From Chondrilla cf. caribensis (taxonomy: Eukaryota > Porifera > Demospongiae > Chondrillida > Chondrillidae), in contig OZ026554.1 of the NCBI GenBank assembly GCA_964020155.1, positions 4,600,327-4,664,326 of the forward strand: a stretch of DNA of 64,000 nucleotides. The letters are read 5' to 3'. The number at the start of each line of letters is the position of its first letter. The first letter of the stretch is position 1. The position numbers and the translations under genes are program-made. This document shows, in pieces, positions 30,440 to 62,266 of this stretch. The notes under the pieces were generated by a model. It was not told the origin of the DNA. It saw only the letters and a program-made list of their open reading frames with translations, and did no database searches.

Positions 30440-31452
30440 TCATGTGTAAGAGACAAGCAGGAGGCTGAAGAAGTAAATTGGAAGGATGAGGTTGTCGATC
30501 TGACTGGTGAAGGCCTCTAGAAGTGACGTCATTACGATGGCTCCACCCAGACACCAGTAATCGTACGGAGAGTAGTAATACAAGGAGACAGCTGGGTCTG
30601 GAAAAGACAGAATGGAACACTGCACATAGTCTCGAGTAGCCAGGTAGACATGCAGTTATGTAATAGACAAAATGGAGGCTATGATCCATATATGTAGATA
30701 TTTACGTCTGACTGTACTGTGGAGGTGGAGTGTGCAACTAGCTTCACTTCCACTATATCATGGTTTGATTTTAACACCTCAGGAATGACATCCTGTTGCA
30801 CCACTGGGGAAGTAATGCTGTGATATACTACCTATGGTAAAGGTGGAATTCCACATGATTGAAAATCCAACAATGTAAGCATACTGACTAAGCACTTTGG
30901 AGAGATTGCATTTCATGTAGCAATCATATTTCCCCATTCCCACTTTTGAGCCTCTGTTTGTGGTAATGTTAAAATGTCACTGGTGTTAGAAAACACAATG
31001 GCAGAGAAAAAGTCTGGCTACATAAGACCACCGTAGGACATGATTGGGAAGAAACTGAAAGGTTGAGTGTAATGAGGGGCAAACCTTCCATACATACATA
31101 TAACAACACAGACACAATACACACACTCACCTATGTACGAGAGGAGGACCACAGCAACCACTTGACCGACTATAGAAGCAACAGCTCCCTCTACAGTTTT
31201 ATTGGTGCCTACATAAAGCATACAGGATGAATGACTACAAGTGTAAAACGATTGTGATGCACAGTTGGTACTATTGAATGGAGTACCTGGTATTTTCCAC
31301 TTGCCAAAGGATTTCCCCACAATTGATGCCAACGAGTCACCAACACCCAGGGCAATGACTCCAGAATACAGACTGATCTTAGGCCAACCTACATGAGGGG
31401 GATAGTATTGGTTTCTATGGATAGGCTTACATAAACTCTCTCTCTGTGTGTG

Positions 31453-31492
<40 letters not shown>

Positions 31493-39811: not shown

Positions 39812-42074
39812 TTAGACTTTGGTGTCTGCTGTTGTCGGCTTGCTACTTGTGATAGTTTTAGAGTGTCTTGTTCTCAAACAACACAGGAGGGACCAATAGA
39901 GATGAAACACTTTCTTTGTCAACAGAAAGGCCACCAAAACTGTCATAGCTTGAGTCGTATTGAAGATGATGAAGAGATACCAGGCCCATGAGAGATCACT
40001 TGAGAATAGGGCCAAAAATCCAAATGACCACGATAAACCGGTAACAGTCAGCAAAGCTACAGCAAATCGGAAATCCTTCCATGATTGTTTCCTTTGTTCT
40101 TTGGGGTCAATAGAGCTTGCCATTGGTCTGTGTCTAATATGTTCTATTATCACCATGACAACAATGAATGCAATTACGTTGAAGATGACGGACAGTCCCA
40201 CTGGTACTACAAATGTCACAATCAGAGCAATAGGTTGGTTTATCCAACAACTACTCCCGACACCATAGTTCACAGAGTCCTCCACTGTAAAATTGACAAT
40301 GATTGTAGGAATGATAATGACAAGAGGTGACAGCCATGCAAAGAGCATGTAGAGAGTGAGCAACTTCCAGTTTTCAGCAGTACTTTTGTTCAACTTCTTT
40401 ATGTTGTAGAAACTCCTCACTAGTTCTGACCCCATCACTGTCATCCAACTGAAACGACACAGGTACACATAATGGATGGCTACTGCAAATATGGAACACA
40501 AAATGTCTACTCTGACATATTGGAAGAGTGGAGCCCCGACAAGAAAGAGCATGTCTCCCAATAGAATTGACAAGACAAAGTTCACCATCAGCTTACTGAA
40601 GAAGGTTCGGAGGTCTTTAAACAAGAAGAAGGTGAGAAGGAACAATAAACAGCTCACAAAATCCATGGATATTCCAATGTATGAAAGAATGCCAAAAGCT
40701 ACTGGATAATTGAACACAGTTTTAATTTGTGTGCTGTTTCTAGTAATGTTTTGAGTAAGACTGGTACAAATGAGAGGTCTACCATTATTGTCAGTGCCTT
40801 CGATGGAGTAAGTCTCGTTGTCGGATAACCACAACAAATTGAATGTGCTACTGCCATTTCCTTGTTGAATGTACTCACTACTCTCAAGAATGATGGGAAT
40901 GCAGTTTGTACTCTGGACACTCGGGATGCACACAAGTGGTCTACCATTGTCGTTTACACTCTCAATGGACACATTCAGGTTGTAGCTTTTCCAGAACACA
41001 CTTTCGTTGCTTATCAGAGAGTACGAACCTCCTACCAGTGTGATTGCTGTGGAGTTCGTACAGTTGGCAGATGGCAATGTACGACAAGATCCCCTGAATG
41101 CATCATAGACACTCCCACTTGGACACACCTCTTCTATAAGATTATAAGGATGTATTGAAGATAATGAGACCAATTTCCCAGTACCAGAGACATCCCAGAG
41201 TATTACAAAAGTATGGGCAATTCCAAATGGTAAATCACTTACAATAGGTTTAACTAAACATGTAACATTTTGGATGCTGACGTTCCAGCAGGCTGCACAG
41301 TATGCGTTAGCATACACATATCCACCAATTGTTACCAGGTTTAGACCGAATGTAATACATTTCTCTCTGAGGTCCGTTGGGGAATCTTCAGGGCATGTAG
41401 TAATCAGTCCTGTAGGCACACGCTCACATCCACGTGGATCAGATAGAGATGACGGTGGATGGTAGTAGTCAAAATCACAGATCTTTAACAATTCACTGAG
41501 AGTAAAATTCGTTTGCACTTTACCTTCGCGGTTTATAAATATGGTCTTGACAATCGAGCTGTATACTCCATGAGATCTGGTTTGACTGCTGTAGTCCGTT
41601 ACATCGGGCGCAGAACTCGTTACGATAAACTAATCCCGTACTTCTATCAGTTACTGGAGGAGGAACAATTTTATAGGAGGCACGAGTAGCGGTAGGATCC
41701 TCGCAAAGAGACACAATCTCGTTGACGTTGGCCACTCCGTCAGCTAGCTGTTCGGTGATCCATGAGCGAGAACACGAGGCGATCATCCAGTAAAAATTAT
41801 CGAATCGGATACACGAAAATCGCGGATCTGGGGGAGCATCCCTTGTCGGTACACTGGCATCGTGACAGCAGTCTCCGTACAGTAGACAGGAAGGGTCACA
41901 ATAGCAGAAAGGAGGATCGTTACTGAAAGGAGGAGGATGAAGGCAAGATGAATCCTCGCAGTACCATGCGTAGTACATACCTCCGTATAATAATACCTGC
42001 GAAGCTACATGCACAGAGCCCCAGATGATAAGAACAATCGGAAGAAAAGATGGATATCGACTATTTGTGGTCAT
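39812..42074 (-). pseudogene. Somatomedin-B 7TM receptor with a one-base frameshift (array copy 9)
   Basis: Outlying receptor copy. The N-terminal frame (41520-42074, 184 aa) has the signal peptide MTTNSRYPSF and a complete somatomedin-B domain (CYCDPSC, GDCC), of the subtype in 26570-28807. It ends in KPRR and a stop. The rest (39812-41518) continues in another frame with QTNFTLSELL, the full ectodomain end and an intact 7TM with GLSWSFGF. Comparison with intact copies places one extra base in the ATTTATAAACCGC run at about 41530-41545. Everything else is intact, so this is a very young pseudogene, a polymorphism or a sequencing error. The tail (KPTTADTKV) is of the 23203-25470 type, so the gene is also a mosaic. 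Confidence 0.75.
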
Positions 42075-43340
42075 ATTCTATACGTGACTTCGTTCTCCAC
42101 CGTGGTAGCATAGACTAAAGTACTGCTGAAAACTTGCGTTAGCAGGTTCAGGTCTCATTATTTATACTGAAGAGGCCAGTAGCCCAGAGGGCTACTACAA
42201 AGGCTCCCATGCAGTGAGATAAAATAATATAAAATAATAATAATTAAATAATAGTAATAATAATTATGTTTAACTTACTATGTATCTTGATCAGTGCAAC
42301 GCTGTTGCCCCTGTATGAAGAATTGTTTTAGATGTAAATGTGCTAAGGGTGAAAGATGTATATAGATTGCTGGCCATCTAGATGTGAAAACTCCAAAGAT
42401 CCACATAATAGTGCGCCTGCAATTCAGAACATGACAACAGATGATTCAAGAGTGACAGGTCCCCTCTACAATTCTAGCGATTCCGGAGAGATTTCTCAAG
42501 ACTCCAACTCTGTCCTAAGTGCTCTGAAGGACTTACTTCAACAGCTGATCAAAATTTTATGTTAAATCCCACAAGGCTCGATGGTTTGTGCGGCACGAAA
42601 ACTGTGTCAAATAATCAAGCAGGTCAACAATCTATAGGACTGGTGTATTTTTTGCAAATAACAACAAATGCATGTCATTTTGAAGCTTGACATATAAGCA
42701 ATGTGGCAGAAACATAATGCACTTAGTCTATTTTTCGTAATATATATGTACATTGACAGAATATGCCATGTTTCCAACATACTGAGGACTCAGGAGGCAG
42801 TTTCTGGACATCATATTAAGTACTTATCGGACACTGCTAGGAAAAAAACAGTTTCATTACAAACAATTTTAGCTTGCAATTGTCAATGAGAAGATTTGTA
42901 AATAAACATGGATTTGGACATTTACAAGAATTAAGTCCAACCTAAACATTAATTACTGCATGTTGCCCAGTAATAGCCTCTGCGTCCAGTAATTGCCGCT
43001 TTGGGCGTCTATATTGATTGCTCCGTAATAACTCCGCTATGCACAGATGGATTATGATGGCTGTATTGTGGCCTTGTGACTGAAAACATTTAAATTTCAT
43101 TTGCTGGGCTGCTATTCATCACTTCTGCCTATCTGCCTATCCATAGATACTATACCACACTTATATTATGTATCTATGGTCTATCTATTTATCCAGCCAT
43201 CCCTCTGTCCATTGGGCATAGACCATAGTACCTATACCTTGGCATGTGCATCGTTTCTCAGCTTGTGCAAGCTCAGCCCGTGTGATCCTTCTTGGCCACT
43301 ATATTATGAATCCCACTGATCATACGTCAAGCTGAGATTT
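42075..43340. other. Intergenic stretch, AT-rich
   Basis: 5' flank of receptor copy 9, followed by an ATAATA-rich patch at 42215-42265 and unremarkable sequence. Short plus-strand frames here (up to 72 codons) show no domains or paralogues. Confidence 0.45.
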
Positions 43341-43879: not shown

Positions 43880-44887
43880 ATGGCAGTCGCGAAAGAAACG
43901 ATCACATGTAGAGGAGTTGGTGAGAAGGTTGCTGCAGAGTTAGAGTGCGCTAAACAGCTCGAGATTCTGAAGGAAAAATCGTGAGTCAGTTTGTATTTTC
44001 AGAAAAATATTCAGTATTTGTTATCGCTGGGCTGTTACCATAAAAGTGATCGCGTGGACGCCAGTGGAGTGAGATTTAGGACATGCACACCCGCGGTGTA
44101 GTGTATCATTGCGTATATAGATTTAATCAGTACATGTAATTAGTGATAGAGAATACATGCGATAGAGTATCTGTATCAATTTGTCACGTCTTATTCGGTG
44201 AATCGTGTTCCTTAATAAACTTTAATTATAGAGTTTACGTCAGCAGATAATTGTTTGGTCATTATTACTGATTATGTGCATTATTGGTGTGATTTTCAAA
44301 ATTGATTGTAATATCATTTTTATCATTTTTTCCGCAGTTGGTTCTTTCTGGATATCTCCTATGAGCAGATACAACTCATTCTTGGGCTGAAAGAAGAAAA
44401 TACCTTCCTAGTTACTAATGGTGCATTTTATGATCAGTTTGTCTTGTACATGAGGTGAGGGGTTTACAAAGTGAAGTTGGAAATTACACATATTATACTC
44501 TGTTCCCTTGTTGGCTGATGTTAATAGCCCAACTGTTAGCATGTACTTTTGTAGTATATAGCACCTACGTAGCTATACATGTCTGTATACTCTTCGCTGC
44601 AGTATAAAATCACTGACAGATGATATACAGCTGGTTAAAATAAACCAGAAGCACTGCGATGATGGTTTTAAGTACATGGTGGAAGGCAAGGTGCAGTAAG
44701 CCCCTAGCTGGAATGAGATGTGTGGTTTTGTACATTCTCTCGTGATAAGGATGACCATTTGAACTATTTTCACTTACATTTGACGTGTCACACTATGTGA
44801 TTTGTATATGTGTACCTGTATAATGCTGCATAATATTATGCCTGTAGTCCATTTATATAGAGCCACTTGTGTGTGTATGTGTGTGTA

Positions 44888-44948
<61 letters not shown>

Positions 44949-46357
44949 TAACTTACTTTTCTTGCGGCCACGGATTAGGAGGAAGTGTATTCTTCTGTGA
45001 TTGAAGCAGTGGACTCTTTTTCATCTTCATCTGAATCCACTCTGGTCCCAGCTGTTGACAGTGCAAGCCGAGGAAGAAAGTTTTCACAAGACAGTAGTGA
45101 CATTGACATAGATACCCCTCCAAACTACACTGCTGCTGCCACATTTCCAGTGAGTCGTGACCTGGTAATACATGCATGTATGGAGATGATATAAGTTGTA
45201 CAGATACAATCTCTTGCTTGCTTGTGTGCTCAAATGCTGATAAAGAGATGATACCCATTTAAATCAGTTTGGAATATTACCACTGTGCCTGAATGACAAT
45301 GTTGGAATTTTAATATTACTGTATTACTATATAATTTTCAATTTTTGGATTCAATTTTTTATGTGTATGCAGGGGGTAATCCACTCACTGCCAACTGTGA
45401 CTAGCAAAGTTAATACGTTGACAGGAGAGGACGGTAAGCCATTATGTGCATAGTGTTTTATGTATCTACATATGTTATTTATCCGTGTTTTACTTAAAGA
45501 TTTCTTCAATTGCATGGGGATAAATGGGAGACAGATATCATTATTTTCAATATTGAGATGGACAGAGGCACAGTGCATGTGGACTAGTTGGTATACAATG
45601 TTAGAGTTTCCAGACCATGCAAGGGGTTGATAATATGAGTGAGCATTTAGGATATGGGATGGGAAGGGAGGATTGGGGTACGATGTCCTCAATCCTTGTA
45701 GAAGGTGTGGTCTTAATCACAGAGCCGGAGGTAGCACACTTGAAGCTGTAGACCTAGGTCCACTCACTATGATCATTACATGTAATCGTGAATTCATCTA
45801 CCACATCTTATTAGAAAGAAAGGAAGAAAATTGGTTTAACCAGAGTCTGTATGGCCCAGTAGTGGGTCAGACAGACCTGCTAGCTAGCTGCCTTCCTTCC
45901 TTCAAAGAATTTCCCTTATCAGGGCTTTCTTTGTGTAGTCAATCTCACCCATAAATGTCCATGTTTGCGATTTTTACACTCTAAGGCTATAGAATATTCT
46001 GTCCGCTCTCAATCTTAACTGCCATGGACTATGGAGCTCCTTTGGCTCATTGACATTATTTTGCATTGTGGAAGTAATTATTTTACTATTGAAATGAATA
46101 CTTATTATATATTGACTTGTCCATTTTTTGCATATTTCATGTACCACACAGCTGACAAAGTGACAAATCCTTACCATCCCCATACTATATATGCCATCCT
46201 GCCTCCTGATACCACTGATGTATTGAATCGAGCGAGAGCCGATGCAATGAGGAACATAAACCTGCCCCCTCCTGCTGTTACAGTGGAGCTGCCACAAACA
46301 CATGTGGGGGCATGTGGACAATGTTGCATGCGATGTTTGGATTTCTGCATCTTGTAA
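43880..46357 (+). CDS. Pseudo-SH2/PPxY protein without membrane anchor, cluster copy B
   Basis: Six exons: 43880-43980, 44338-44454, 44603-44690, 44979-45149, 45373-45433, 46152-46357, all with GT/AG borders, predicting 247 aa. SH2-like fold: Trp-FFLDIS start, TFLVTN in place of FLVRES, FVLYM strand, LVKI strand, VIEAVDSF helix and LVPAV end. PPNY follows. After CGQCC the frame differs from copy C by one base and stops at TAA 46355-46357, so the paired-Cys segment is incomplete and the transmembrane helix is lost. The old frame beyond also has stops. It may be a decaying gene or a soluble variant. It is closest to copy A (shared MAVAKETIT start) and to C in exons 2-5. Confidence 0.65.
44857..44947. 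repeat. (TG)n microsatellite in intron 3 of copy B
   Basis: TG/TATG tract, mostly pure from 44898 to 44947, ending about 30 bp before exon 4. Copies A and C have only short GTGTGTG runs at this place. Confidence 0.9.
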
Positions 46358-46813
46358 TCCTGATTACAGTGATATTTTTGAAGAGAAGGGTCGGTATGAC
46401 TTTGAAGGTGCCGGCCCTTCTTGATATGTTTTGGTTTTGTTGTGTTATTGGATATGTTTTTTTTTCTTTTTGCTGTCCGTGTATGTGTATATATATTCCT
46501 TACTTATGTTATCGTTGTGGATCAATTACTGTTGTGGTTATATATGATTCCTGCTTTAGTCCCCTTTGTGAACATTGGTGTTATATTAGTTTTATTGAGT
46601 TTGTAACAGTTGTTGTTTGCAGTGTCTTAGTGTTTTAATTTTATCGTGCAGTTCAAACTTGCTCATAATTCTCCATACAGTGTTATGGACTACCTAAGGC
46701 GTCGCGTAGTCTCGACCGGCCCTCGTTTTGGCTTCCCTGGACACGTTGCCCACAGCGGTCTGGTTGCGCGAGACTATTCGAAGCGGATATAGGCACAATG
46801 TACATGCAACAAC

Positions 46814-48624
46814 ATGGCTGACCCGGACGAAGAGAATATACCAGTTGGCGAAAGGTCTGAGACACAGTTGGGGTGTGTCAAACAGATTGAACTTTTAAAG
46901 GGAAAAGCGTAAGTCGGTTCATATATAAGGATTTCCAGCATTTGGTATCGAGAGAATTTTACTGAGATATGTAAATAGCTACAATCCCGTGATCGAACCG
47001 TATTACAAACAATAATAATAACAGCGTGTTTTTCAATTGAATGACGGCAGACAGTAATTTGGAGACCCTTATTATTGATATCGTCAATTATATTGTAAAG
47101 TTTGTAAATATAAGCTTTTCCTCACGTTGTTTCCGCAGTTGGTTCTTTCTGGACATCTCCTATGAGCAGATACAACTCATTCTTGGGCTGAAAGAAGAAA
47201 ATACCTTTCTAGTTACTAATGGTGCATTTTATGATCAGTTTGTCTTGTACACGAGGTGAGGGGTTTACAAAGTGAAGTTGGAAATTACACATATTATACT
47301 CTGTTCCCTTGTTGGCTGATGTTAATAGTTCAACTTTGCGTAATGGTACCTAGTACCTAGCTGACTGTATACTCTTCAATGCAGCATAAAATCACTGTCA
47401 GATGATATACAGCTGGTTAAAATAGACCAGAAGCACTGTGATGATGGTTTCAAGTACATAGTGGAAGGCAAGGTGCAGTATTTTATTTCATGTCCCTAGC
47501 TGGAATGAGATGTGTGGCTAACGTTTTGTACATTCTCTCATGATAAGGATTGGCATTTGAGCATTCAATTCACATGCATGATAATATCAGTATGTGATTT
47601 ATATGTAATTGTAATTCAGTGTATGTTGTAGTCCATTTGCAGCCATTTAATTTTATTTGTGTGTGTGTGTATGCACGTGCGCGTGTGTGTGGGGGGTGGC
47701 TGTGTGTTAAAATTACTTTTGTTTGCATGGATTAGGAGGAATTACATGCTTCTGTGATAGAAGCAGTGGACTCTTTTACATCTTCATCCAAATTCAATCT
47801 GGTCCCAGCTGTAGAGAATGCAAGGCAAGAGAGCTTGCGGTCACAAGACAGTTGTGACATTGACATAGATACCCCTCCAAACTACACTGCTGCTGCCACA
47901 TTTCCAGTGAGTACAGAGACAGATGTATTAGCAGTAAATGTATAGGCCAGTACTCTCTTACTTGTCTACTTCAATGCATGATAAAGAAATGTTATCCATT
48001 TCAATCAGCCTGGAATATTGTAGTATTAGTAACCTGAATGCTATTTAAGTTTCAATTTTTGATTTTTTTTTTGTTTCATGTATGTGCAGGGTGTGATCCA
48101 CTCACTGCCAACTGTGACTACCAAAGTTGATACTTTGAAAGGAGAGGACGGTGAGACCATTCAATATGTGCTATGTGCATACCTTCGATCTTATGATTTT
48201 TTTAAGGAATTTTTGTGTAGTGTGATTAACACCTATATCTTTCTTGAAAATTTGCACACGCAAAACAGCTGATGATGTTGAAGCACCTCCCACTCCCCAT
48301 GCCATGGATAATACAACTAATCGAGTAAGACGGAATGCAATTAGGAACAGAAATCGCTCATCTGCTGTTCAGCAGGCTCCAACAGCTAGGGAAAGATGTG
48401 GACACTGTTGTGCACAAAGTTGGGACTTCTGTTGTCATGCCGGACGAGATGAGTTGGAAAATGACAGAAGGTGGTATGACTTCAGAGGTGCTGGCCCTTG
48501 CCGGTGTGTTTTAGTATTCATGTTTTGGTTTTGTGTTGTTCTTTTTTGTTGCCCCTTTGCATGTTGTTACTTGTGTTTTTTTATTTACGGTGCTCTTAAG
48601 TTTGTTCTATGTGATGACAGTTGA
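46814..48624 (+). CDS. Membrane-anchored pseudo-SH2/PPxY protein, cluster copy C
   Basis: Exons 46814-46908, 47139-47255, 47385-47472, 47736-47906, 48090-48150 and 48269-48624 join to 295 aa. Residues 1-32 are acidic/charged (MADPDEENIP). Residues 33-126 read as an SH2 fold: W33-FFLDIS (strand A, helix A), TFLVTN 54-59 (strand B), FVLY 66-69, QLVKI 80-84, FKYIVE 93-98, helix SVIEAVDSF 106-114, NLVPAV 121-126. The phosphotyrosine-binding Arg of FLVR is Thr58; the helix-A Arg is Tyr40; the strand-D His is Leu81. PPNY at 147-150 is a WW-binding motif. Paired cysteines (CGHCC 221-225, FCCH 231-234) lead to one helix at 258-286 rich in Cys and Phe, then CDDS. With no signal peptide, the N-terminal part should face the cytosol. 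Family unnamed; role inferred as adaptor. Confidence 0.78.
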
Positions 48625-48930
48625 TTAGAATTCTATCGATTTTTTGTATTATAATTTCTTTCACATACAACACATGCATAATGCCATTCCAAGGTGACCC
48701 CATATTATATCAATAATGTTGACAAATAGGTGCATGGAATAGGATAATTGGAGATTTGTACAGATTATGATGACAACTTTTGAGCTGAAAGTGGTAACAA
48801 TTGCATGACATCATGATCAATCATTATTGAAATTGTGCATAATAAATTTATACTTCAACAAAATGCATAATATTATGTCAATATCCTGTTAATTACTAGA
48901 AAATACAATAATATGTGCTTTATCCTTTTA

Positions 48931-50440
48931 ATATTTTTCAATGTATGGGAGAGTACCGTATAGTGGGAAAGTTTCGTTTCGTTGTTTGAACTTTGCGAAG
49001 AAACTGGTTTTTGCGAAAGTTTTATTCGTGAACACCCAAAGACGTAATCGTGACCTGATGTACTGCAATGGGATTTGTGAAACGTTTTATGCGAAATTGA
49101 GCGATTTGCAAAAGTTGTCCTGCAAAACTGTCCGTCCATACAGTATATTATTATGAGGAAAAATTCTAAGCACCTTTTTATCTAGCTCATGGAAAAGGAG
49201 GCATGTCAACTTGATATTTTTACCAGACCTAGCTGGGGACATGAACTAACATATGAAACAATTCTTATCTCTGTAGCTAACCCGTAACCCCAGCTACATT
49301 CGGAGGTGCTTAATATTTGTCAATGTATGGGAGAGTATAGGACAAAAAAGCTCCTCTTTGCATAACTCATGGGGGAGGGGGCATGCAACTCAAGATTTAG
49401 CCAGACCTAGCTGGAGACGTGAACTAACATTTGAAACAACTCACATCTCCGTAGGTGTCCCATAACCCCAGTAACATTCGGAGGTGCTTAGTGTGTTTTC
49501 AATGTATATGGTAGAGTATATAGTAGTAAGTGCTATAAGTACCTTTTTGTAATATCATGGGGAAGGGTGTGTGTCAACATGATACTTCAGCCATACTTGA
49601 CTTGAGATGTGAACTAACATTTGTAACAATTCCCATTGCTGTAGCTAACCCATATCCCCAGCTATATATTCAGAGGTGCTTTATATTCTTTTCAATGTAT
49701 GTGAGTCAGAGTATATTAGGAGAGAAAGCATTAAGCACCTTTTTACATAGCTCATAGAGAAGGGGGCGTGTCAAATTTTTATTTTAACCAGACCTATCTG
49801 AAGACGTGAACTAACTCATGAAACAATTCCAATCTCTGTAGCTAACCTGTAACCCCAGCTACATTTGAAGGTGCTTAATGACTTTTCCAATGTATCGGAG
49901 AGTATAGGAGAGAAAACACTAAGCACCTTTTTGCATAGCTCATAGGGGAGGAGGCGTTTCAAGTTGATGCTTTTACTAGACCTAGCTAGGAATGTGAACT
50001 ATCATTTGAAACAATTCCCATATCAATAACTAACCGTAGCTGGTAACCCCAGCTTCATTCACAGGTGCTTTTTTCAATGTATGGAAGAGACTCAGTATAG
50101 TAGAAAGCGCTAAAAGCACTTTTTGCATAGCTCATGGAGGAGGGGGGGTGTCAGCAGAATATTTTAGCCAGACCTAGCTGGGGACATGAACTAACTTATA
50201 AAACAATTTCCATTGCCGTAGCTCACCAGTAACCCTGGCTTTATTCCGAGGTGTTTAATATTTTTTCAATGTACAGGAGAGTATAGGAGAGAAAATGCTA
50301 AGCACCTTTTTGCATAGCTCATGGGGGAGAGGGCATGTCAACTCGATATTTTAGCCAGAACTAAATGTGAACTAACATTTGAAACAATTCCCATCTTTGT
50401 AGCTAACCCGTAACCCCAGCTACATTTGGAGGTGCTTAAG
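48931..50440. repeat. Satellite of about 190-bp units, seven to eight copies
   Basis: The motif GGAGGTGCTTA followed by TTTTCAATGTATGG(G)AGAGTAT recurs near 48931 (partial), 49302, 49480, 49671, 49867, 50062, 50248 and 50429. Each unit also carries AAGCACCTTTTTGCATAGCTC, a CCAGACCTAGCTG block and AACCC(G/A)TAACCCCAGCTACATT. Copies differ at roughly a tenth or more of positions, so the array is old. No coding frame is conserved. Confidence 0.8.
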
Positions 50441-50749
50441 ATACATATGGTGTATTGTTATCCAATTCCAATGTAAAGTATTATGTACTATGGAGAAAAG
50501 TAACGACCATCTTGCCTAGATGCTCGAAAATGCAATATGTGCCTTTTGCCTTTAAGAGGTACATATATAGTGTATTATTATTATTATTCAATTTTGATGT
50601 GAGTATATACTACGGAGACAAATAGCGTCCATCTTGCCTATAGCTGAATGCTCGCCGCATCACACACGTGACATCAGCTGACCCCACGTGACCGACGAGT
50701 TCAACAACTTGAGCAATCATTGAAGTCTTTAATATTTTCAATCGTTTAT

Positions 50750-53166
50750 ATGGAGCCTGGAGAAGAAGGGGGAGGTGTGGAAAGTACTCAGACGAACGGA
50801 AATGAACTCGTAGGGGGAGAAGAGGAAGTTCGGCTGCAGTTTAAGCTTCTGAATGAAAGAGAGTCAGTCCACATGTGGCTATCATACTCGGTAGCCGATG
50901 AACTAATAGGGCTTCGGTAACTGCATCCATGCTTCTCCACTCGCAGGTGGTACTTTCAGGACATTTCCTACGAACAAATCGAGCTCATTCTGAAGCAAAG
51001 AAAGGAGAACACGTTCTTGGTGACAAACGGAGCTTTTGAAGACCAGTTTGTCTTGTACATGAGGTGGGTCCAGAGTGTTTGGAGTATCTGTGGTACTTTG
51101 TGAACTACGAAACTACATCTCAACAGTGTCTGTGAATCTGTGATGGTGTATTGATCTCATTTATGCCGTCTATCTGTACATGTAGCATTAAGAACACTCT
51201 CAGTGATCACAGTGCTGAGATGAAGACAATAACTCTTCTCAGGAATCGACATGGAGGGAAGTATACGTACAGGTTTGAGGACAAGGTGTGTTCATGTTGT
51301 CAGTTACATTAACTTCTGATTGCGTAATTTTCATGGTGTGTAACTCTACTCGTCTATAGGAAGATGAATTTCCAAATGTGGTTGAAGCCGTTGTGTCATT
51401 TGTAAATTGTTCCGAGTTCAAACTTGTTCCTGCTATAGCATCCCATGTCACCTTGAGACAAGAGAGCATACAGTCCCAAGGTAGTAACGAGGTAGACCTT
51501 CCTCCCAACTACACAGCAGCAGCTAACTTTCCAGTGAGTGTGCTGACGACCATTCCGCCATTCGCATGTTATGCTTCAGTATGGAGTCAATCCTGTGTAT
51601 CTGTAGGGTGTGACCCAGCAACTTCCTGTAATTCATGCAAAAGTTGATGTTGAGAAGGGAGAAGATGGTGAGTTTGTTCCAACAGATATGAGAGTGTCAT
51701 GCAAGCCTAGCCATCCTTTAGAATGAGACACTTTGTTATCACACTAACATTATAAACTTCATCTGTGATTATAATGGTTAATTAGGGGCTGCCGCAGCCC
51801 CTATATTGTTTTCATTTCGACTTCCGGTATGTAACGCTCGTCTGATAGATAGATATATATATATATAATATGTGTTCCTACGCGTAACCGCAACAATGAA
51901 TTTATTACCGAGCGTTAGCGAGGTAATTGTTTCCTTTCGTTAGGGGAGTCCGATCGAGGTCGCCCATGCTCTTAATTGTGGTGGCCGCCAATATTGTTCG
52001 ATTTAGGTCATTTTTTGGTTTCTTTGAACGCAAATCGTCCGTCGAACGAAGCGTTCAGCAGTAAGTTGTCTCACCGATGGTAATGGGGCACCGTTGCAGC
52101 ATATATTGAAATGACAAACTTGGACAAAGGTTGTTTGTGGTTCACACACGATCCGTTAAAAGAGTACTTACTTTTTGATTCCTCCTGTCAACAAATTTCG
52201 GACTACATCACTACTAAATACCTTAAAACAATTTGAATAACAATTGTCAACTTTTTTGCATAACGATTTTTTGATTTCCTTTGCCGAAGAGCAGGGTTCG
52301 CCAATTCATTGTTCGGGACACTAAATGGTCGGCCATCATGACGTCCATTTTGGAAGACATCTTTAGATGATGTTACTGAACTACGTCATATCATAGATCT
52401 TCATATGCAAGATCTATCTATGGTTTTATGCCTAGCATTTGCGAGGTTCTGAACTTTGTTCACGACTAGTATTATAATTTATATTGCGCGAAATAAAGAT
52501 GGCCAATTTTTAACGCTGACAATTTGAAATTGGGCTAGAATTCGTGTGCTGAAGCTTCGCCAAATGTAATAACTTCAGCAAAGGTTCTTCTGAACCTAAC
52601 ATAGTCGCCAAGTAATTCGAGTGTGGGGGCGGCAGCCCCACAAGTTTTTGAACTCGAATTACTTGTTTTTCCTTTTTTTGTACGAAATTTACTGACAGCC
52701 AAATTTGCTAACACAAGTCCGCCTCTAAGTGACTGTGTGTGACATGTCACTTGCACTTATCAGTATGCATATATGGATACTTACCTATGTTCTCCACTTT
52801 TTCTAATGCATAGCTGATGCTGTTACCACTCCTGTCCAAGTAAGAGATTTTATATATGACGTGAATGATATCATTGCTCATGATGTTAACAGACGACCTG
52901 TGGAACACTGGTCAACACATGTCCACTACTACCAAGATCTTCACTGCTGTCATCCCAAGAATACATGGCACTTCTGTTGTCACAGAGGATATCATAGTTA
53001 TGGTTCAAGAAGAGGATGGTACTCTATTCAAGGATCTGGAATCTGTCGTGCCCTTTGTGTGCTCCTATTCTATTGTCTGGTGGTGGTCTGTTGTCCTTTC
53101 ATATGGCCTTGCTTTTGTATATGTTGCATTTTTCTCATACTGTCTACATGCGAAGATGATGACTAG
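50750..53166 (+). CDS. Membrane-anchored pseudo-SH2/PPxY protein, cluster copy D
   Basis: Exons 50750-50862, 50947-51063, 51186-51285, 51360-51533, 51607-51667 and 52814-53166 give 305 aa. The start is MEPGEEGGGV; an upstream in-frame Met at 50720 precedes an unlikely hydrophobic stretch. SH2-like domain from W39 (WYFQDIS) with TFLVTN (Thr64 for Arg), LVLY-type strand FVLYM, YTYRFE strand, helix VVEAVVSF 117-124 and KLVPAI. PPNY is at 158-161. Exon 6 encodes an acidic linker, WSTHVHYYQDLHCCHP, paired cysteines (C233-C234, C243-C244), RRGWYSI, then a Cys-rich helix at about 268-298 and CEDDD at the end. Exon sizes after the first match copy E exactly. Intron 1 may use a second donor at 50917, which would add SVHMWLSYS-like sequence. 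Intron 5 holds a transposable element. Confidence 0.78.
51782..52665. mobile_element. Non-autonomous element with GC hairpin ends, copy 2 (in intron 5 of copy D)
   Basis: It starts TTAGGGGCTGCCGCAGCCCC, a perfect hairpin, and ends with a second hairpin region (GGGGGCGGCAGCCCC) and TTTTGAACTCGAATTAC. Ends match 43341-43810. The interior includes a (TA)n patch and no clear gene. It lengthens intron 5 to 1146 bp against 253 bp in copy E. Confidence 0.6.
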
Positions 53167-53283
53167 GCATCCCCACTGTTATTTTGTACTTTATGACGTG
53201 TGTGCCGATAGTGTAACGATTGAATGTATTTACTGTATTAATTTTATTGCTTTTTGATTACTTATGTTAGTTTTTATGTTGTG

Positions 53284-53378
53284 CCCATTCAATACAAATG
53301 AAAATAATGATTCACAATTATGCAAACTAGCACTTGACCAGCTGATGCTAATTGTCAATAACAAAGAGTTGGTAGTGA
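53284..53378 (+). pseudogene. Relic of a copy-E-like first exon in the 3' flank of copy D
   Basis: This matches the sequence around exon 1 of copy E (53940-54018 and 54115-54140): GATTCACAATTA...GCTGATGCTAAT then TGTCAATAACA(A/G)AGAG. The start codon and about 97 bp of exon 1 are missing between two AAT trinucleotides. Together with 53655-53990 it shows that the D-E junction was duplicated in tandem. Confidence 0.7.
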
Positions 53379-53477
53379 TCAAGCATTTAAAAATGATAAA
53401 GGATGTATGGATAACAAGCAGAAAAGGTGAAGGAACAAGGTAGGGCTGAGAAGTCTGCTGGATTGAGCCACACATTG

Positions 53478-53613
53478 AAATGAGAAGACTGTCAGAATAT
53501 ATTAATCCTTATATCAACAGCTGCTGCAGACAGTATACCGTGTATTGCACGAGAAATGACTGCTGTTGATATAGGGATTGTATATATTCCGACACTCTTC
53601 TCATTCCAACGTT
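53478..53613. repeat. Hairpin-forming inverted repeat, about 45-bp arms
   Basis: AATGAGAAGACTGTCAGAAT at 53479 and the complementary AT(A/T)CCGACACTCTTCTCATT at the right end flank a short loop. The inner arms contain TATATCAACAG and CTGTTGATATA. It is possibly a small foldback transposon or a structured spacer; no TA or TTAA duplication is certain. Confidence 0.6.
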
Positions 53614-53654
53614 CTGCTCACTCTGATGGTCTTGTCATTCTGCTCATCCTTGAA

Positions 53655-53990
53655 TAGAGTGATACTCTATTCAAGGATCTGAAGTTTGCCGTGCCCTTCA
53701 TGTGCTCCTATTCTATTGTCTGGTGGTGATCTGTGTTCCTCTCATATGGCCTCTGTTTGGTGTACATTTTTGACCATTTCTTCAATAATTATTGTTACAA
53801 TGATGATGACTAGACATCCACACTGTACATTTGTTTTGTGGTTTATGACGTGTGTGTCGATACTGCAAAGTTTTGTATCTATTAACTGCATTAATTGTGT
53901 TTTTACTTGCCCTGTGTTGGTTTCATAATATTGTGCCCATTCAACCCAAATGAGGCTAACACATGTACATGATTCACAATTACGCGTAAT
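53655..53990 (+). pseudogene. Duplicated 3' end of copy D
   Basis: From GATACTCTATTCAAGGATCTG it follows the end of copy D exon 6 and its 3' flank (about 53018-53310), with frameshifting differences in the transmembrane part. It has no upstream exons and ends just before exon 1 of copy E. It is a dead gene end left by a tandem duplication of about 640 bp. Confidence 0.75.
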
Positions 53991-54018
53991 AGCACGTGAC
54001 CATGCAGCTGATGCTAAT

Positions 54019-56008
54019 ATGGATTCGGTCGCTGCGGACCAGATCGTCGAAGATTCAGGGATTATCGACAGCAATACTTTACAAACCAGCAAAGAAGATA
54101 CGTCAAAGTTGGGAATTGTCAATAACAGAGAGTAAGTAGTCAATATAGCTTATGTCTGACGTAGTCGAGGTAAATTTCTGAATCACCCGGTCTCTGGAAC
54201 AATGGTTTTCCGAATCATGTGTTTACCGTGGCTTCGATTCCTGCTTCTGACGCAAGTACGAACTATAGCTGTTCCGGAAAATCTGTAATATTGGCTACGG
54301 AATAATCATTCTAGTTGAGTTTGTAGTCACATACACATCGAAGTGAGCACTACCCCTTGAACCTCGTGGATGCTTTAATAGAGAATTGTGACTGTTATAG
54401 TTCATTTGACGTTTTTCCATGTTTGGAATAGTTCGTGAAACTTTGGAAAGTCACCAGTCTGTTCAGCTATGGCTTGCTAGGTACCAGTCTAGGTTAGTAT
54501 ACCGTAATCATGTCCTCATGTATGTGAGTTCAGTTTCGATGATAATGCATGAATATTTCACCTCTCTTGGTACTTGCACGCAGGTGGTACTTCCAGGACA
54601 TCTCCTATGAGCAGATTGAGCTCATTCTCAAGCAAAGAAAGGAGAACACGTTCTTGGTGACTAATGCAACAGCTCCTGACCAGTTCGTCTTGTACATATG
54701 GTGAGTAAGGGATTGAATTTGATTTAGTACATTGGTTGAAAATTGAGAACTAAATAATTGTACACATTCCATTCTCTCCTATGAATGTACCTATAAAGCT
54801 CCCTTGTAAATTCTAGAGAAGGTATCGATGTACTTACTTTACAGTGCTTGTTGTATCTCCCATAATCAATTTATATGTACATGTGAAGCATCAAGAGTAC
54901 TTCTGATGACGATACCTGTGAGTTGAAAGCAGTGACACTAGACAAGAATCAGCATGGAGATAAATGTGTGTACAAGTTTGAGGGTGAGGTATGTACACTG
55001 TTTACGTCATAATCCATGTTCATGATGTATTTTATATTCTCAAATTTGTGGCTGGTACCACTCAAGAATATAAGAGTGTATCCGCACATCCATAGGAAGA
55101 TGAATTTCCAAATGTGGTCGAAGCTGTTGTGTCATTTGTAAAGCGTTCTGAATTCGACCTTGTCCCAGCCATTGCATTCAGGGTCACCCTCAGACTGGAG
55201 AGTATCTTATCGCAAGGCACTGTCGAGGTAGACCTACCTCCGAACTACACAGCCGCAGCTAACTTCCCGGTGAGTGTACATGATATTGTGTACACTTAGT
55301 GTGTTATGCTTCAGTATGGAGTCTACCCTGTTAACCTATAGGGCGTGACCAAGCAACTTCCTGTAATTGAAGCAAAAGTTGATGTCGAAAAGGGAGAAGA
55401 TGGTGAGTTTGCTTCAGCAGTCAATACAATATTGCATGACACTGTCATTCAGAATGAAACAATCCATTCACTTAACTGTCAAAATTTCTTAAACTTGTCA
55501 GTACTTAATTATCAGTAATGATGTATGATATATTTCACTGTGGTCAGGTTTGCTGGCACAATATCCACCTCTACTGTGTGCGTAGTATATCCTATGCGCA
55601 TACACTATCCATGTGCGAGTGCTCGCCTACTATCTCCTCCTTATCCGGCACATAGCCGATACCGCTATACCTCCAGGTAGAGCTGTGAACATTAATAATA
55701 ATTGTTTGAACTGTCGAATTGCTTCCCCGCAATATGGAGATTATCATGATCAATCTGGAGAACGCTGGTCAACACATGTCCACTACTACCAAGATCTTCA
55801 CTGCTGTCATCCCAAGAATACATGGCACTTCTGTTGTCACAGAGGGTATGACAGCTATGGTTTGGAGAGAAGCTGGTACTCCATTCGAGGCTCTGGAATC
55901 TGCCGTGCCCTCTGCTTGCTCCTATTCTATTGTCTGGTGGTGGTCTGTTTTCCTTTTGTTGGTTTGGTGCTCCTCTGTCGTGTGCTGCGTAAATCACTGC
56001 GTGCTTAG
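54019..56008 (+). CDS. Membrane-anchored pseudo-SH2/PPxY protein, cluster copy E
   Basis: Exons 54019-54131, 54584-54700, 54889-54988, 55096-55269, 55342-55402 and 55656-56008 give 305 aa, all with GT/AG borders. The N-terminus is MDSVAADQIV. The SH2-like domain opens WYFQDIS, with TFLVTN again lacking the Arg; a Cys replaces the Arg/Ser at the exon 2-3 junction. Helix VVEAVVSF and DLVPAI close the fold. PPNY in exon 4 is conserved. Exon 6 has WSTHVHYYQDLHCCHP, FCCH and RSWYSIRGSGICR, then one Cys-rich helix. The tail is basic (RVLRKSLRA) instead of the acidic ends of C, D and F. An alternative first exon may lie at 54419-54492. Exon 6 is identical to copy D over a stretch of more than 75 bp, which suggests gene conversion. 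Confidence 0.78.
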
Positions 56009-56607
56009 TTATGTGGTTTGGGAAGATGTTTGACAATGTTGTGTGTGTTCAACAGGTTTTCATCAATAGACTACCTGTCATCATTAATGAATTTTGTATA
56101 TTATGTATTATAATTGATTGAAATTGATAGATCAATTGATATTATTTGCAAATGTATGGGATTTAGTCAATTATTGTAAATAATAATGATTGAAAACATG
56201 TTATAAATTCATTAATAAATTTTACCACATGTTGGCAACTGTGCCCACATGTTCATGTCCTGACAGTGTGTTTTTGGATCTGTGTCTTATATTTGGGATC
56301 ATGGGTAGTGTAGATTGACCAGCATACGTATGTATATCTTTATCTATATCTGCCTTTGCTGTCTGAGAACAGCTATAGTAAGTCAATATTTCACACAGTG
56401 TGTGTTGGCATTATATAATATGAGCGGTATTCATGGCGCTAAAGTACTTTTATTCAGCAATATCCGTACCTCGAGCATCATCAAATTTTCTTGCCGTGTG
56501 CAATTTAACGCGTTTCTCTAATACTTGTTATGCTACCATACGCACGGCTACGCTAGACTAATTTAGCCACTTGAACCCGTCGTAAACAGTATAATAGATT
56601 CGATACA
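56009..56607. other. Intergenic stretch between copies E and F
   Basis: AT-rich 3' flank of E with several AATAA runs, followed by the 5' flank of F. No repeat or small gene was recognised. Confidence 0.5.
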
Positions 56608-57487
56608 ATGACTTCAGATGGGCTTTCTCAGCGAGAACTTGATGAAGACAGAACAGAAACAAGCCGACAAATAGCACTACTGAAAAGGAAAGAGTAAGTT
56701 TAGAGACGTATTACACCCCTTCCGCATACCAAAGCGTAGACGGTTCTAGTATGTTAGGCCTCTGTTGCTGGCGACTGTTTTACAGCTGGAGAGGTTTACT
56801 GTTATGAGTGTAAAACTGTAATGTCTTTGGTGATGTTGAAACGGAAATGTTGTTCATTCCGTTTCGTATTTGCACGCAGGTGGTACTTCCAGGATATTTC
56901 CTACGATCAAATTGAGCTGGTTCTCAAGCAAAAGAAGGAGAGCGCGTTCTTAGTCACTAACGGGGCCTTCGACAATCAGTTTGTAGTGTACACAAGGTAG
57001 GTGCCGATTAGCCTCGATTTTCCACGCTGTTCGCCCCATTGTGGCCACTCCATATCATGGATACCCCACTATGTAGTAGTGAGTATATACGTAATATGCT
57101 CATGTACATACCGTGTGTTCATGGACATGCGTACTGTAACGGCGTGTTTGGACTAGTTGCATGCATCTGTACAGCCAGCCAGCCATCCACCCATCCACTT
57201 TACTGTGCCCTTCTGCTCACTGTGGCATTGCTCAGACTGTTGTACAGTCTGTATATGACAGCCCTAGCACTGTCTATTGCAGCTCCTGTCATGGAACACC
57301 CCAGTGTTTTATGTGATGATTTATGGTACCTTTAATCTTATTACTCTCACTTGGTGTGTGCAGAATTAAATGCAAGCCCAAGAAAAAACAATTTAAAGTG
57401 AAAACTGCAAACATTGTCCGGAGAAAAGATGGCAACTCCTTTGTCTATGTGATAGAGGGAAAAGTGTGTGTTGTGTGTGTGTTAGTG

Positions 57488-57561
<74 letters not shown>

Positions 57562-57582
57562 TGTGTGTTTGTGTGTGTTTGT

Positions 57583-57622
<40 letters not shown>

Positions 57623-60263
57623 ACGTGCGTGTGTGTGTGTATGTGTGTAAATATGATATCCATTCATCTTAACTCCTCATCCATTTATTTCAGGTGTGTA
57701 CATTTCCTCCTGTTCACATAGTATGTAAACATATAGAGTGTTTGTGTGTGTAGGACATACATTATATGGATTATGTTTGTATAAACCCACCCATACCGTG
57801 CACTTATTAGATTTTTATTTGTATTTATATTCATAGCATGTTATCACCTGCAATTATCATTTCTCGTTTCTTTCCAGAGTGAGGTTAAATTCCCCACTGT
57901 AGTGTCTGCCGTTGAAGAGTATGTATCATTGTCCGAGGACCCACTGGTGCCAGCAGTGGAGCTGAGTGTTAGCGCCATGGAGAGTTCGATTTCACTACGG
58001 GATAATGACATACCACCGGGGTATACTGCCGCTGCCACCTTCCCTGTGAGTGAGCATATGAGGATGGGAATACAGTGGAACCTATATAGAAGGACACTCG
58101 AACAAAAGACACCATAGAAATTACCTCCCTACAAAGGACACTTTCTGAGGCACCAAAAATAGACTTTGCTGTAGTGTTAATAGTCTTTTCTGAAGAGTGG
58201 GCAACCTCTCTACAGTGGACAAATTAGCTGGTCCCAGTGTGTCCTTTATAGACATTCCAATGTATACACCTACACTTGGTTTACCTGATACCTGGTTAAT
58301 CCCATGCTTATGGTTCATCCAGCACCTAGCATATCCTAATGCCTCAATTATCCACACTTTGTGATTTCTCTTTACTGATTTACGGACAATGTATCCTGAT
58401 TTTCCTATCACATTAACCAGGTCCCCTATACAGATACCCATTCAGTACATACATACTTCAGGTGTATGTGTATTTATATCAGTCCAACTGCCAGTATGTA
58501 CCTTGAAGCATGCACCAAATCTGTACTTCTTACCAGAGATACTTGTTATCAGTACTGGCATCAACATCTTGAATGAGCTAGGACCTGATTCAAGTGTATC
58601 TGTTGGCAGAGATGTGTATGTACTGTCCAGGGTACTTCAAATACGTTGCACTGTACAAACACACGCACATGCATACACCATACACACACACACATGCGCA
58701 CATACACACACACTTCCACACCATGCAAATGTATTTATGAACTAAATTGTGTGTTAATGCACTACATTATATCCTTGTGAACTGTGTTATTGTGCAATCC
58801 AGCAAACATCTGGACTCAGACCATACATGTTGATGATGTTTGAACTGAATATCATCCTTTCCACAGTGCATTATGTGTCTGTGTTACTTATCCCCACTTT
58901 TCTGCTAACTTTGTATCATGTGTATCAGGGTGTGATCCAACCTCTGCCCAGTGTGAGAGCAAAGGTTAACCCTAAGAAAGGAGAGGACGGTTAGTTCATC
59001 TGTTTAACTACACTGAGTTTGTGTTAGAGGTGGGGTGGTCAATTGCATGTACCCTCTTCTGTGCTAAAACAGTGCTCAATAGTTAGATGGTATGCTTGCA
59101 ACTATGCATTCTTCTTCCATTATATCCTCAAGAATGCAAGTTTGTCCCCCTACCTGGGGCCCTGACCCTGTCCCCCTACCCGGGATCCTCACTCTGTCCC
59201 CCTACCTGGGGCCCTCACCCTGTCCCCCTACCTGGGGCCCTCACCCTGTCCCCCTACCTGGGGCCCTCACCCTGTCCCCCTACCTGGGGCCCTCACTCTG
59301 CCCCCCTACCCGGGATCCTCACCCTGTCCCCCTACCCGGGATCCTCACTCTGTCCCCCTACCTGGGATCCTCACTCTGTCCCCCTACCTGGGATCCTCAC
59401 TCTGTCCCCCTACCTGGGATCCTCACTCTGTCCCCCTACCTGGGATCCTCACTCTGTCCCCCTACCCAGGATCCTCACTCTGTCCCCCTACCTGGGATCC
59501 TCACTCTGTCCCCCTACCTGGGATCCTCACTCTGTCCCCCTACCTGGGATCCTCACCCTGTCCCCCTACCAGGGGCCCTCACCCTGTCCCCCTACCCGGG
59601 ATCCTCACTCTGTCCCCCTACCTGGGATCCTCACTCTGTCCCCCTACTACCGGGGCCCTCACTCTGTCCCCTACCTGGCGCCCTACCTGGGTCCCTTACC
59701 CTGCATGTATAATATTTATACGAATACATTTACACACACATACACACATCATGACATCTATGTATACCTGCATGTTCGATGATATCACAGCCAACAGAAT
59801 TAACATGATAAAGTTCTTTTTTCTCCCCAAATCACCGTTATCCTTGTGTAATGGGGTACCTGAGGTACCTTCTTGTAGCATTCATTTTGTCTAAGAATTC
59901 TAATCCAAACAGTCACTATTGCTTTCTACAGCTGACAGCCAAGAAGTTCCCTTTGACAGAGGCCTGGCGTGGGAGAGCTATGACGATAGAGATCGTGCAC
60001 GTTGGTCGACCCATCTTCACTACTACAAGGACCTTCACTGCTGTCATCCCAGGAACACCTGCCATTGCTGCTTCCATCGTGGGTTTGATTCCTTCGGTGT
60101 TGAGAGGGAGCTTTACGATTGTCGTGGAACTGGCCCTTGCTGTTGTTTATTGCTTATGTTTATGTACATTTTCTGCTGTTTATTCTGTTGTCCATGTTTG
60201 TTTGTGACTCTCTGTATTTGCTGTCTTGTCAGCTTGTATGATGAATACAATGATGATTACTAG
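56608..60263 (+). CDS. Membrane-anchored pseudo-SH2/PPxY protein, cluster copy F
   Basis: Exons 56608-56693, 56880-56996, 57364-57463, 57878-58045, 58929-58989 and 59932-60263 give 287 aa. It is the most diverged member: MTSDGLSQRE start; SH2-like WYFQDIS, AFLVTN (Arg again absent), FVVYT, VYVIEG, helix VVSAVEEYVSL and PLVPAV. The WW motif is PPGY rather than PPNY, followed by TAAATFP as in the others. Exon 6 has RWSTHLHYYKDLHCCHP, CHCCFH and GTGPCCC, then a helix of about 30 residues with many cysteines and the acidic tail DEYNDDY. Exon 2 and exon 5 keep the family sizes (117 and 61 nt). The exon 5 donor is GTTAGT. Introns carry a TG tract, a MITE and a GC-rich minisatellite. Confidence 0.78.
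57489..57640. repeat. (TG)n microsatellite at the exon 3 donor of copy F
   Basis: The TG tract, with periodic TTTG interruptions near 57558-57590, begins about 25 bp after the exon 3 donor at 57464. A TG-rich downstream tract can affect donor use; that is inference. Confidence 0.85.
58071..58264. mobile_element. Diverged MITE copy in intron 4 of copy F
   Basis: It starts TACAGTGGAACCTATATAGAAGGACA and ends TTTATAGACATTCCAATGTA. Interior phrases (AATTACCTCC, GACAAATTAGCTGG) match the 38099-38298 element in reverse orientation. Its terminal repeats have decayed. Confidence 0.65.
59147..59702. repeat. 26-bp GC-rich minisatellite in intron 5 of copy F, about 21 units
   Basis: The unit TCACTCTGTCCCCCTACCTG plus GGATCC or GGGCCC repeats head to tail. 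Being 26 bp, it shifts frame each unit; the long frames with SPYPGSSLCPP repeats arise because no unit contains a stop codon. The surrounding exons show it is intronic. Confidence 0.85.
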
Positions 60264-60506
60264 AACACAGTAAATGTAACTAGAGATGTTAACTATACTA
60301 CTGGGATCTGATGTACACATGTGTCTGAAATTTGACTATAATATACAAGGATGCCCCAGCCTCGGTAGAAAGAGTCCTTCAGTTGTACTATGTACAGCTA
60401 TATGGAGCTGTAGAGAGTATTGTATATTGTATGTATAGCTACTCCATGCAGTTTTGGTTTCCAATTTTGTGTAGTGGAATTGGAATTGCGTACAATAGCG
60501 GTTAAA
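60264..60506. promoter_or_regulatory. Short intergenic region upstream of CNOT10
   Basis: The stop of copy F and the CNOT10 start are 243 bp apart in the same direction, so this holds the F polyadenylation site and the CNOT10 promoter. No specific element was identified. Confidence 0.4.
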
Positions 60507-61639
60507 ATGGCCGATGGGCAAGTCTCTCCAGTCGAAAGCGAACTCTCTATAGCAGCCGAGCAGCACTTCAAAACTCAAAGCTACGAATCTTGCCTAACTA
60601 CACTGAATAAGCTTTGGGAACAGAGGAGAGACGATCCTAGAGTTCTCCACAACAAAGCGGTCGCTAGGTATTACTTATCCAATCTTACTCAAACAGACGA
60701 TTTCAGAAAAACACTACAGCAAGTCTCAGACCAGGTAAGTTCCGAAGTGTCTTCTTTTTGAATTAAATATCAAAGATAGGAGTTGTGTAGTTTTCGATTA
60801 GTACCTATTGGTAGATCATAATGAATATTGGATTGTAGAGGCATTGTACGAATATAGTACAATACCAGCAGAATATGTTTTCATACATGTGGTCTGTACA
60901 GTACAATTGGAAGTCGCACAGTACAGTACAATTGGAATACACACAATACAGTACAATTGCAATACACACAATACAGTACAATTGCAATACAGTACAATTG
61001 CAATACACACAATACAGTACAATTGCAATACACACAATACAGTACAAATGGAATACAGTACAATTGCAATACACACAATACAGTACAATTGCAATACACA
61101 CAATACAGTACAATTGCAATACAGTACAATTGCAATACACACAATACAGTACAATTGCAATACAGTACAATTGCAATACACACAATACAGTACAAATGGA
61201 ATACACACAAAGCTTAGCTTCTTTTCATCTTGACAATATACTTTCTGTTGCTCCTGCGAGGTAATAGGTCTAATATTATATGTATGTATCTCTGTACACT
61301 TAAATCCCTTGCACCTACGTATGGATAATATATTATATTGTACCTACATGCACGTTGCACACACTTATTTCTCTTACTTATCTGTCTTGTTTGACTCTGT
61401 ATTGCATACAGAGTCGAGTGGTGGAAGGAGGGACCTTTGAACATGCCGTTCTTCTGTACAACAAAGCTCTCATTCTTGTCAGAGTGAGTACCAGATCGGA
61501 CAACATGCTACACTCGTCATCTGGTGAGGTTGGGGTGTGTTTGTAGTCAACGTGATGTGTCTACTCTATTATTTAGTTACGGCAATCAACAAAGGCCATT
61601 GCCATACTTCAAGGACTGTTTGCTGTTGACTCTGCCCTT

Positions 61640-61673
<34 letters not shown>

Positions 61674-62202
61674 CGTGCGTGTGTTGTACGTACATCATTG
61701 TTTCCCAATTCTCCTTCACCTTCTCAGACAAGAACCTCTCTGTTCAAGTGTGCTTTCTCCTTGCAGAGCTCTACCTCACTACTTACCAGGTAACAACCAT
61801 GTATACATACAGTTACTGTAACCATGTTAACCCAACACATGCACTTGCTATCCTCTCAATAATCCAACATGTGTACTTTCTATCCCCTAGGTAACCCAAC
61901 ATTTTGTCCTTGCTATCTTCTTGATAATCTGACATGTTTGTTATCCTCTTGATAAACCAACTGTATGTACTGTACTTAATGTACATATGTTGTCATATCC
62001 ATGTGAATGAAGAAGGGGAACATGTTACTGATTGCAATGTACATTTGGGAACGTAAACTGTCAGTCCCTTATGAGATGCCACATTTGTTCATTGTACATT
62101 GTTGCACAGACCAGCAAGGCTAAGGGTCTCTTGCTGCACATGGAAAATAAGTTTTTTGAAGGCAACGTTCACTCATCAGGAGAAAAAGACAAGGTAAGGG
62201 AT

Positions 62203-62266
<64 letters not shown>

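Follow-up and report, generated by a model that had tools for sequence, protein, structure and literature searches.

SH2 domains are known as readers of phosphotyrosine. According to the accessible part of one account, mutation of the FLVR arginine can cost as much as half the binding energy, three human SH2 domains (those of RIN2, TYK2 and SH2D5) lack that arginine, and the SH2 domains of the JAK family bind their receptors without a need for phosphotyrosine (PMC7530234). The accessible part of PMC3507883 contained no information on loss of this arginine. Tail-anchored PPxY proteins of herpesviruses bind NEDD4-family ligases, as the available portion of a second account has it (PMC5849660). 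Ndfip1/2 and TMEM127 appear, in the accessible text of our sources, as cellular adaptors of NEDD4-family ligases. By their topology they are membrane adaptors. Here we analyse a locus of the sponge Chondrilla cf. caribensis that brings features of these systems together. It lies within a stretch of 64,000 nucleotides (GenBank assembly GCA_964020155.1, contig OZ026554.1, positions 4,600,327 to 4,664,326; hereafter the window), whose plus strand carries five copies of one gene at 43880-60263 and a sixth, badly damaged copy at 37279 to about 38600. The predicted proteins consist of an SH2-like domain, a linker with a PPxY motif, a Cys/His segment and a Cys-rich hydrophobic tail, in that order, an architecture that is well supported by comparison of the copies with one another and with relatives from outside the window.

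Results

We regard homology of the SH2-like domain to SH2 as established at the level of sequence. Seven intact members were compared, namely the window genes g2 to g5 and the outside relatives P0001, P0002 and P0004, or eight where the damaged gene g1 is included. P0001, at 21.6 bits, passes the cut-off of the Pfam SH2 family (PF00017), which is set at 21, and is the only one of the seven to do so. When a profile of the seven members was compared with PDB sequences, the 31 top rows of 46 were all SH2 chains (best E value 4.9e-4), with one protein, p85-alpha, recurring in many rows; the top-scoring solved chains were those of TXK, the N-terminal SH2 of PI3K p85-alpha, BMX, ITK and SOCS2. A second profile was built from 15 diverse SH2 domains of this genome, and against it the family profile scored 43.6 over 75 columns at a probability of 95, with an E value of 3.4e-8 that refers to one single pair, and none of 300 column shuffles scored higher, their maximum being 16.2. 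A model of the same 15 domains gave all eight members 10.7 to 22.1 bits, above the 9.6 bits of the best decoy among 16,000 shuffled sequences, of which 9,212 received a score. The initial annotation, which had called the domain SH2 from conserved positions aligned by eye, was thus right as regards homology. In g3 the domain covers residues 39-135, encoded by exons 2-4 at 50948-51434 on the plus strand; these limits come from the profile comparisons, g3's own Pfam match being below the cut-off.

Several results weigh against so firm a view. In the Pfam scan of the seven members an SH2 match at an E value of 1 was obtained for four, leaving three with none, and among the four window proteins SH2 was matched in three, each time under the cut-off. 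P0004 stands barely above the best decoy (10.7 versus 9.6 bits), and when eight close SH2 domains, all from a single array, served as the reference, significance was not reached: 3 of the 300 shuffles outscored the real profile. No Pfam domain other than SH2 was found in the family, either in the seven members at an E value of 1 or in the four window proteins.

The residues by which an SH2 domain would ordinarily hold phosphotyrosine are largely missing. The FLVR motif reads FLVT (FVVT in P0002) in an alignment that is free of gaps there, so that the betaB5 arginine is a threonine in all eight copies; FLVT is still legible in copy 0, the sixth and most damaged one. The threonine codon lies at 51023-51025 in g3, 44414-44416 in g1, 47215-47217 in g2, 54660-54662 in g4 and 56956-56958 in g5, all on the plus strand. 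Of the 15 SH2 domains compared from elsewhere in the genome, 14 keep the arginine. At the betaD4 place none of the seven members has histidine, versus 12 of those 15 domains, and at alphaA2 arginine occurs in P0001 only, the other six having tyrosine (both places were assigned by eye on the profile alignment). Because betaB5 is threonine and the betaD4 histidine is absent, canonical phosphotyrosine binding by the SH2-like domain appears unlikely. The ordinary SH2 adaptor implied by the initial annotation is therefore not what these genes seem to encode: the FLVR arginine is replaced in 8/8 and the usual histidine is absent in 7/7.

The PPNY/PPGY motif of that annotation fared better: a PPxY is present in all seven intact members, and in 8/8 with g1, within a conserved linker that follows the SH2-like part (g3 51501-51512, g1 45117-45128, g2 47874-47885, g4 55237-55248, g5 58013-58024, plus strand). 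The same linker holds a KGEDAD block, which is RGEDAD in P0002 and TGEDAD in g1. Further on, the segment annotated as CC...FCCH cysteine pairs is indeed present (g3 52942-52983, g2 48403-48438, g4 55799-55840, g5 60036-60077, plus strand), although two cysteines and one histidine are all that is invariant across the seven.

Each intact member ends in a hydrophobic Cys-rich tract that begins at a GxGxC motif and has an invariant proline near its middle (7/7; g3 53032-53163, g2 48487-48621, g4 55889-56005, g5 60126-60260, plus strand). With its edges included, the tract spans 36-44 residues (Kyte-Doolittle, 19-residue windows above 1.6). It had been described as one Cys-rich hydrophobic helix; the tract itself is found throughout, but at this length it is not clearly a single helix. 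Between its end and the C-terminus there are 0-5 residues in six of the seven members and 34 in P0002, the last 90 residues contain 9-18 cysteines, and the C-terminal residues are acidic in every intact member except g4. Taken together, these features suggest that the hydrophobic C-terminus is probably a membrane anchor. We set aside a secreted protein, since a hydrophobic N-terminus or clear signal sequence is absent in six of the seven and borderline in P0002, whose first residues resemble unspliced intron. A search with residues 119-288 of P0001, the part after the SH2 domain, matched P0001 and P0003 only; as P0002 and P0004, already known as relatives, escaped it too, its bearing on whether the tail module occurs elsewhere is slight.

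Protein searches covered a space of about 5.8 billion proteins and returned three relatives with g3 alone as query and five with a six-row alignment (A2). These outside relatives align along the protein with the window genes. The contig that encodes P0001 (288 residues) is 1218 bases long and those with P0004 (277 residues) measure 1010 bases at most, while their counterparts in the window extend over 2417 and 3656 bases. Such contigs are too short for introns like those of the window, so exons 1-6 are joined there; the two appear to derive from spliced messages, or else from processed copies. The proposed joining of exons 1-4 to exon 6 is thus borne out in these two relatives, each a whole protein. 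P0003 and P0005 are partial, each running into an apparent intron. Because the best identity of P0002 and P0004 to this genome is only 46% and 69%, respectively, they come from elsewhere. In a midpoint-rooted tree of eight proteins P0002 groups with g1/g2 (support 100/100) and P0004 with g5 (100/99), and P0001 groups less firmly with g3/g4 (86/87). Under that root the tree would imply three subfamilies, each with one outside relative, that predate the split between the sources.

All five copies g1 to g5 could be modelled with six exons in the same phases, and all 25 modelled introns are GT...AG; exon edges were picked by reading the sequence and not from RNA. g2 (295 aa) occupies 46814-48624, with exons at 46814-46908, 47139-47255, 47385-47472, 47736-47906, 48090-48150 and 48269-48624. 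g3 (305 aa) occupies 50750-53166, with exons at 50750-50862, 50947-51063, 51186-51285, 51360-51533, 51607-51667 and 52814-53166. g4, also of 305 aa, occupies 54019-56008 (54019-54131, 54584-54700, 54889-54988, 55096-55269, 55342-55402, 55656-56008), and g5 (287 aa) 56608-60263 (56608-56693, 56880-56996, 57364-57463, 57878-58045, 58929-58989, 59932-60263). These four, all on the plus strand, are open from ATG to stop. In g1 (43880-46357, plus strand) exons 1-5 are open and exon 6 ends prematurely. Exon lengths in bases are 101/117/88/171/61/206 in g1, 95/117/88/171/61/356 in g2, 113/117/100/174/61/353 in both g3 and g4, and 86/117/100/168/61/332 in g5; exon 2 is constant at 117 bases and exon 5 at 61.

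In copy 0 (plus strand; three-frame reading of the DNA) the reading frame is interrupted within exons 1 and 4, exon 2 is without its first half, and exon 3, still readable, was recovered by a genome search as well (C9:4638208-4638315); no match to exons 5-6 was found in its neighbourhood. Modelling exon by exon bore out four intact and two damaged genes with a common exon structure and order of parts, as initially annotated, with the correction that the damaged copy 0 falls outside 43880-60263, the interval then given. A scrap of exon 6, interrupted by two stops and also found by genome search, lies between g3 and g4 at 53636-53764 (C9:4653962-4654090, plus strand). Searches of the genome with g3, P0004 and P0002 led back to this locus; their sole further match, on C23 (E value 0.64), we took as noise rather than as a second locus.

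The genes g3 and g4 are under purifying selection: dN is 0.26 and dS 0.91, giving a dN/dS of 0.29 overall and of 0.17 over the SH2-like domain. For g1/g2, of which g1 is damaged, the ratio is 0.60; dS is saturated for most pairs other than these two. Identity between g3 and g4 is 73-90% in exons 2, 4, 5 and 6 versus 53-68% in the five introns; exons 1 (43%) and 3 (63%) do not rise above the introns. Intron 5 of g3 measures 1146 bases (51668-52813) and that of the sister gene g4 only 253, a difference that would fit an insertion; the only inverted repeat of at least 14 bases in 51700-52700 is a single 14-base pair at 52609-52665.

Two repeats accompany the genes. Intron 5 of g5 contains a minisatellite (59143-59678, 20.6 copies of a 26-base unit), and between g2 and g3, at 49166-50439, a 188-base unit is repeated 6.8 times in tandem. 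Since the minisatellite is open in all three plus-strand frames, false frames are possible in lists of open reading frames.

A tandem array of single-exon receptors occupies the minus strand at 830-28810 and 39812-42077. Six of its frames are open and encode 746-774 aa, and the copies at 4421-4828, 5594-6445 and 39812-42077 are incomplete or disrupted; Pfam 7tm_2 was recognised in both frames scanned, along with a weak hit to somatomedin B. Copy 0 sits within this array, on the opposite strand. We considered a tie between the array and the SH2-like cluster, in favour of which there is only that the two are neighbours and that copy 0 lies where it does. Directly downstream of the cluster, at 60444-63487 on the plus strand, are frames that we take to resemble a CNOT10-type TPR protein, and frames at 31018-33362 on the minus strand presumably resemble dolichol kinase. 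Elsewhere in the genome, C14 carries an array of SH2-bearing frames at about 1.55-2.14 Mb; 17 of the 20 best genome SH2 matches are on C14. Wnt-domain matches in the genome number 24, which points to an animal, Wnt being an animal family.

Discussion

With somewhat less than even confidence, we read the family as a membrane-anchored adaptor in which docking by the SH2-like part needs no phosphotyrosine and the PPxY draws in a WW protein, likeliest a NEDD4-type HECT ligase, by analogy with described systems. The tail would insert in the membrane, with the SH2-like domain and the PPxY in the cytosol; the SH2-like domain, without its FLVR arginine, would dock a partner independently of phosphotyrosine, as in the JAK family; the PPxY would bring a WW-domain protein, most likely such a ligase; and the docked partner would be ubiquitinated or sorted at the membrane. 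WW and HECT together form the NEDD4-type gene arrangement. The genome has 30 WW matches, and at three places WW exons neighbour HECT exons of the same orientation: among the matches listed, those beside HECT exons are on C15 (4), C9 (4) and C11 (3).

Other points count against this proposal. The PPxY is a single stretch of four residues whose partner is assumed, and NDFIP2 is said, in the accessible part of PMC12720080, to require multiple elements. The tail might be a hairpin or palmitoylated instead of a simple tail anchor, and the adaptor function as a whole is a prediction from sequence.

It is somewhat unlikely, though far from negligible, that the same architecture serves a WW protein that is not a ligase, YAP-like or another scaffold, the family then tethering or sequestering a signalling protein at the membrane. 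Only the WW matches on C15, C9 and C11, among those listed, adjoin HECT exons, which leaves room for such a partner, and the sequence gives nothing that separates it from a NEDD4-type one; the known tail-anchored PPxY proteins nevertheless bind a NEDD4-family ligase, in the portion of PMC5849660 available.

The tail bears on a second alternative, which we consider unlikely: the C-terminal tract could form a re-entrant hairpin or a palmitoylated patch, so that the C-terminus would be cytosolic and the protein monotopic or peripheral. Its 36-44 residues, the invariant proline in mid-tract and the 9-18 cysteines in the last 90 residues would suit this arrangement, but the second half of the g4 tract is basic and short, and the acidic end of six of the seven intact members fits a single pass with the end outside.

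The membrane-held phosphotyrosine adaptor of the initial annotation, in which other basic residues would have to replace the FLVR arginine, is improbable. Beyond the firm SH2 homology, it could draw on the arginine at alphaA2 and the lysine at the betaD4 place of P0001, and on the C-terminal SH2 of p120RasGAP, in which, according to the accessible part of PMC7530234, phosphotyrosine is held not by the FLVR arginine but by other residues. Against it stand the betaB5 threonine (8/8), the lack of a betaD4 histidine (0/7) and the alphaA2 tyrosine of six of the seven members. That the family is decaying and has no present function, as two damaged copies of six and one scrap might suggest, is very hard to reconcile with the g3/g4 dN/dS of 0.29 and with three subfamilies that each have an outside relative.

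Returning to the membrane-anchored adaptor that docks without phosphotyrosine, its wider form is more doubtful: an SH2 domain turned, in an animal lineage, into a phosphotyrosine-independent docking module, fixed in a membrane by a Cys-rich tail and with a PPxY added, may constitute a class of ligase-recruiting adaptor without a counterpart among named SH2 proteins. The initial annotation knew of no named family with this layout, and we likewise found none in Pfam, in protein searches (with few eukaryote proteomes) or in the literature (mostly open-access, among the titles and abstracts listed); the family could already be annotated in sponge databases. Threonine for arginine in 8/8 copies and three subfamilies, together with the tail and the WW-binding motif, would mean that evolution has put the fold to yet another use, and with three groups of relatives its conserved surfaces can be mapped.

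Comparison with known systems

With the SH2 family the window genes share homology over most of the SH2 length, including the initial W, the FLV of strand B and the helix-B region; they differ from it in the exchange of the FLVR arginine for threonine (8/8), the missing histidine (0/7), the lack of any further Pfam domain and the hydrophobic tail. Like TYK2, RIN2 and SH2D5, they retain an SH2 domain from which the phosphotyrosine arginine is gone; those three have histidine or tryptophan at the place, as far as the accessible part of PMC7530234 describes them, and the family has threonine. Unlike TYK2 and the other JAKs, the window family has no kinase domain (no other Pfam domain in seven members at an E value of 1), and its tail and PPxY are extra.

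A further parallel to the lost arginine is found in the same genome, in a tandem pair on C10 (L041 1221-3815 and 6394-9048, minus strand) that joins SH2 to a tyrosine-kinase-like part. There too the FLVR arginine is a threonine (FLIT, FLVT). The pair nevertheless differs from the window family: its frames are 884 and 864 residues long, the 884-residue one, which was scanned, has a kinase-type domain, and the pair is absent from the family's own-genome matches. Its kinase-like part has HCAL and ANF in place of HRD and DFG, the usual kinase motifs there, and by eye it would appear to be a pseudokinase.

The herpesvirus proteins UL56, UL42 and U24 have a cytosolic PPxY, a C-terminal membrane segment and no signal peptide, according to the available portion of PMC5849660, a layout that the family would share if its tail inserts in the membrane as predicted. 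The family is set apart from these, and from Ndfip and TMEM127, by the descriptions in the accessible parts of the sources: it has one PPxY, and an SH2-like domain is not mentioned there for any of them. Pfam, for its part, gives no family common to the window genes and the NEDD4 membrane adaptors. The domain at this locus is a known one, and so is the manner of its degeneration; what is new is the combination, which was not met before in what was searched.

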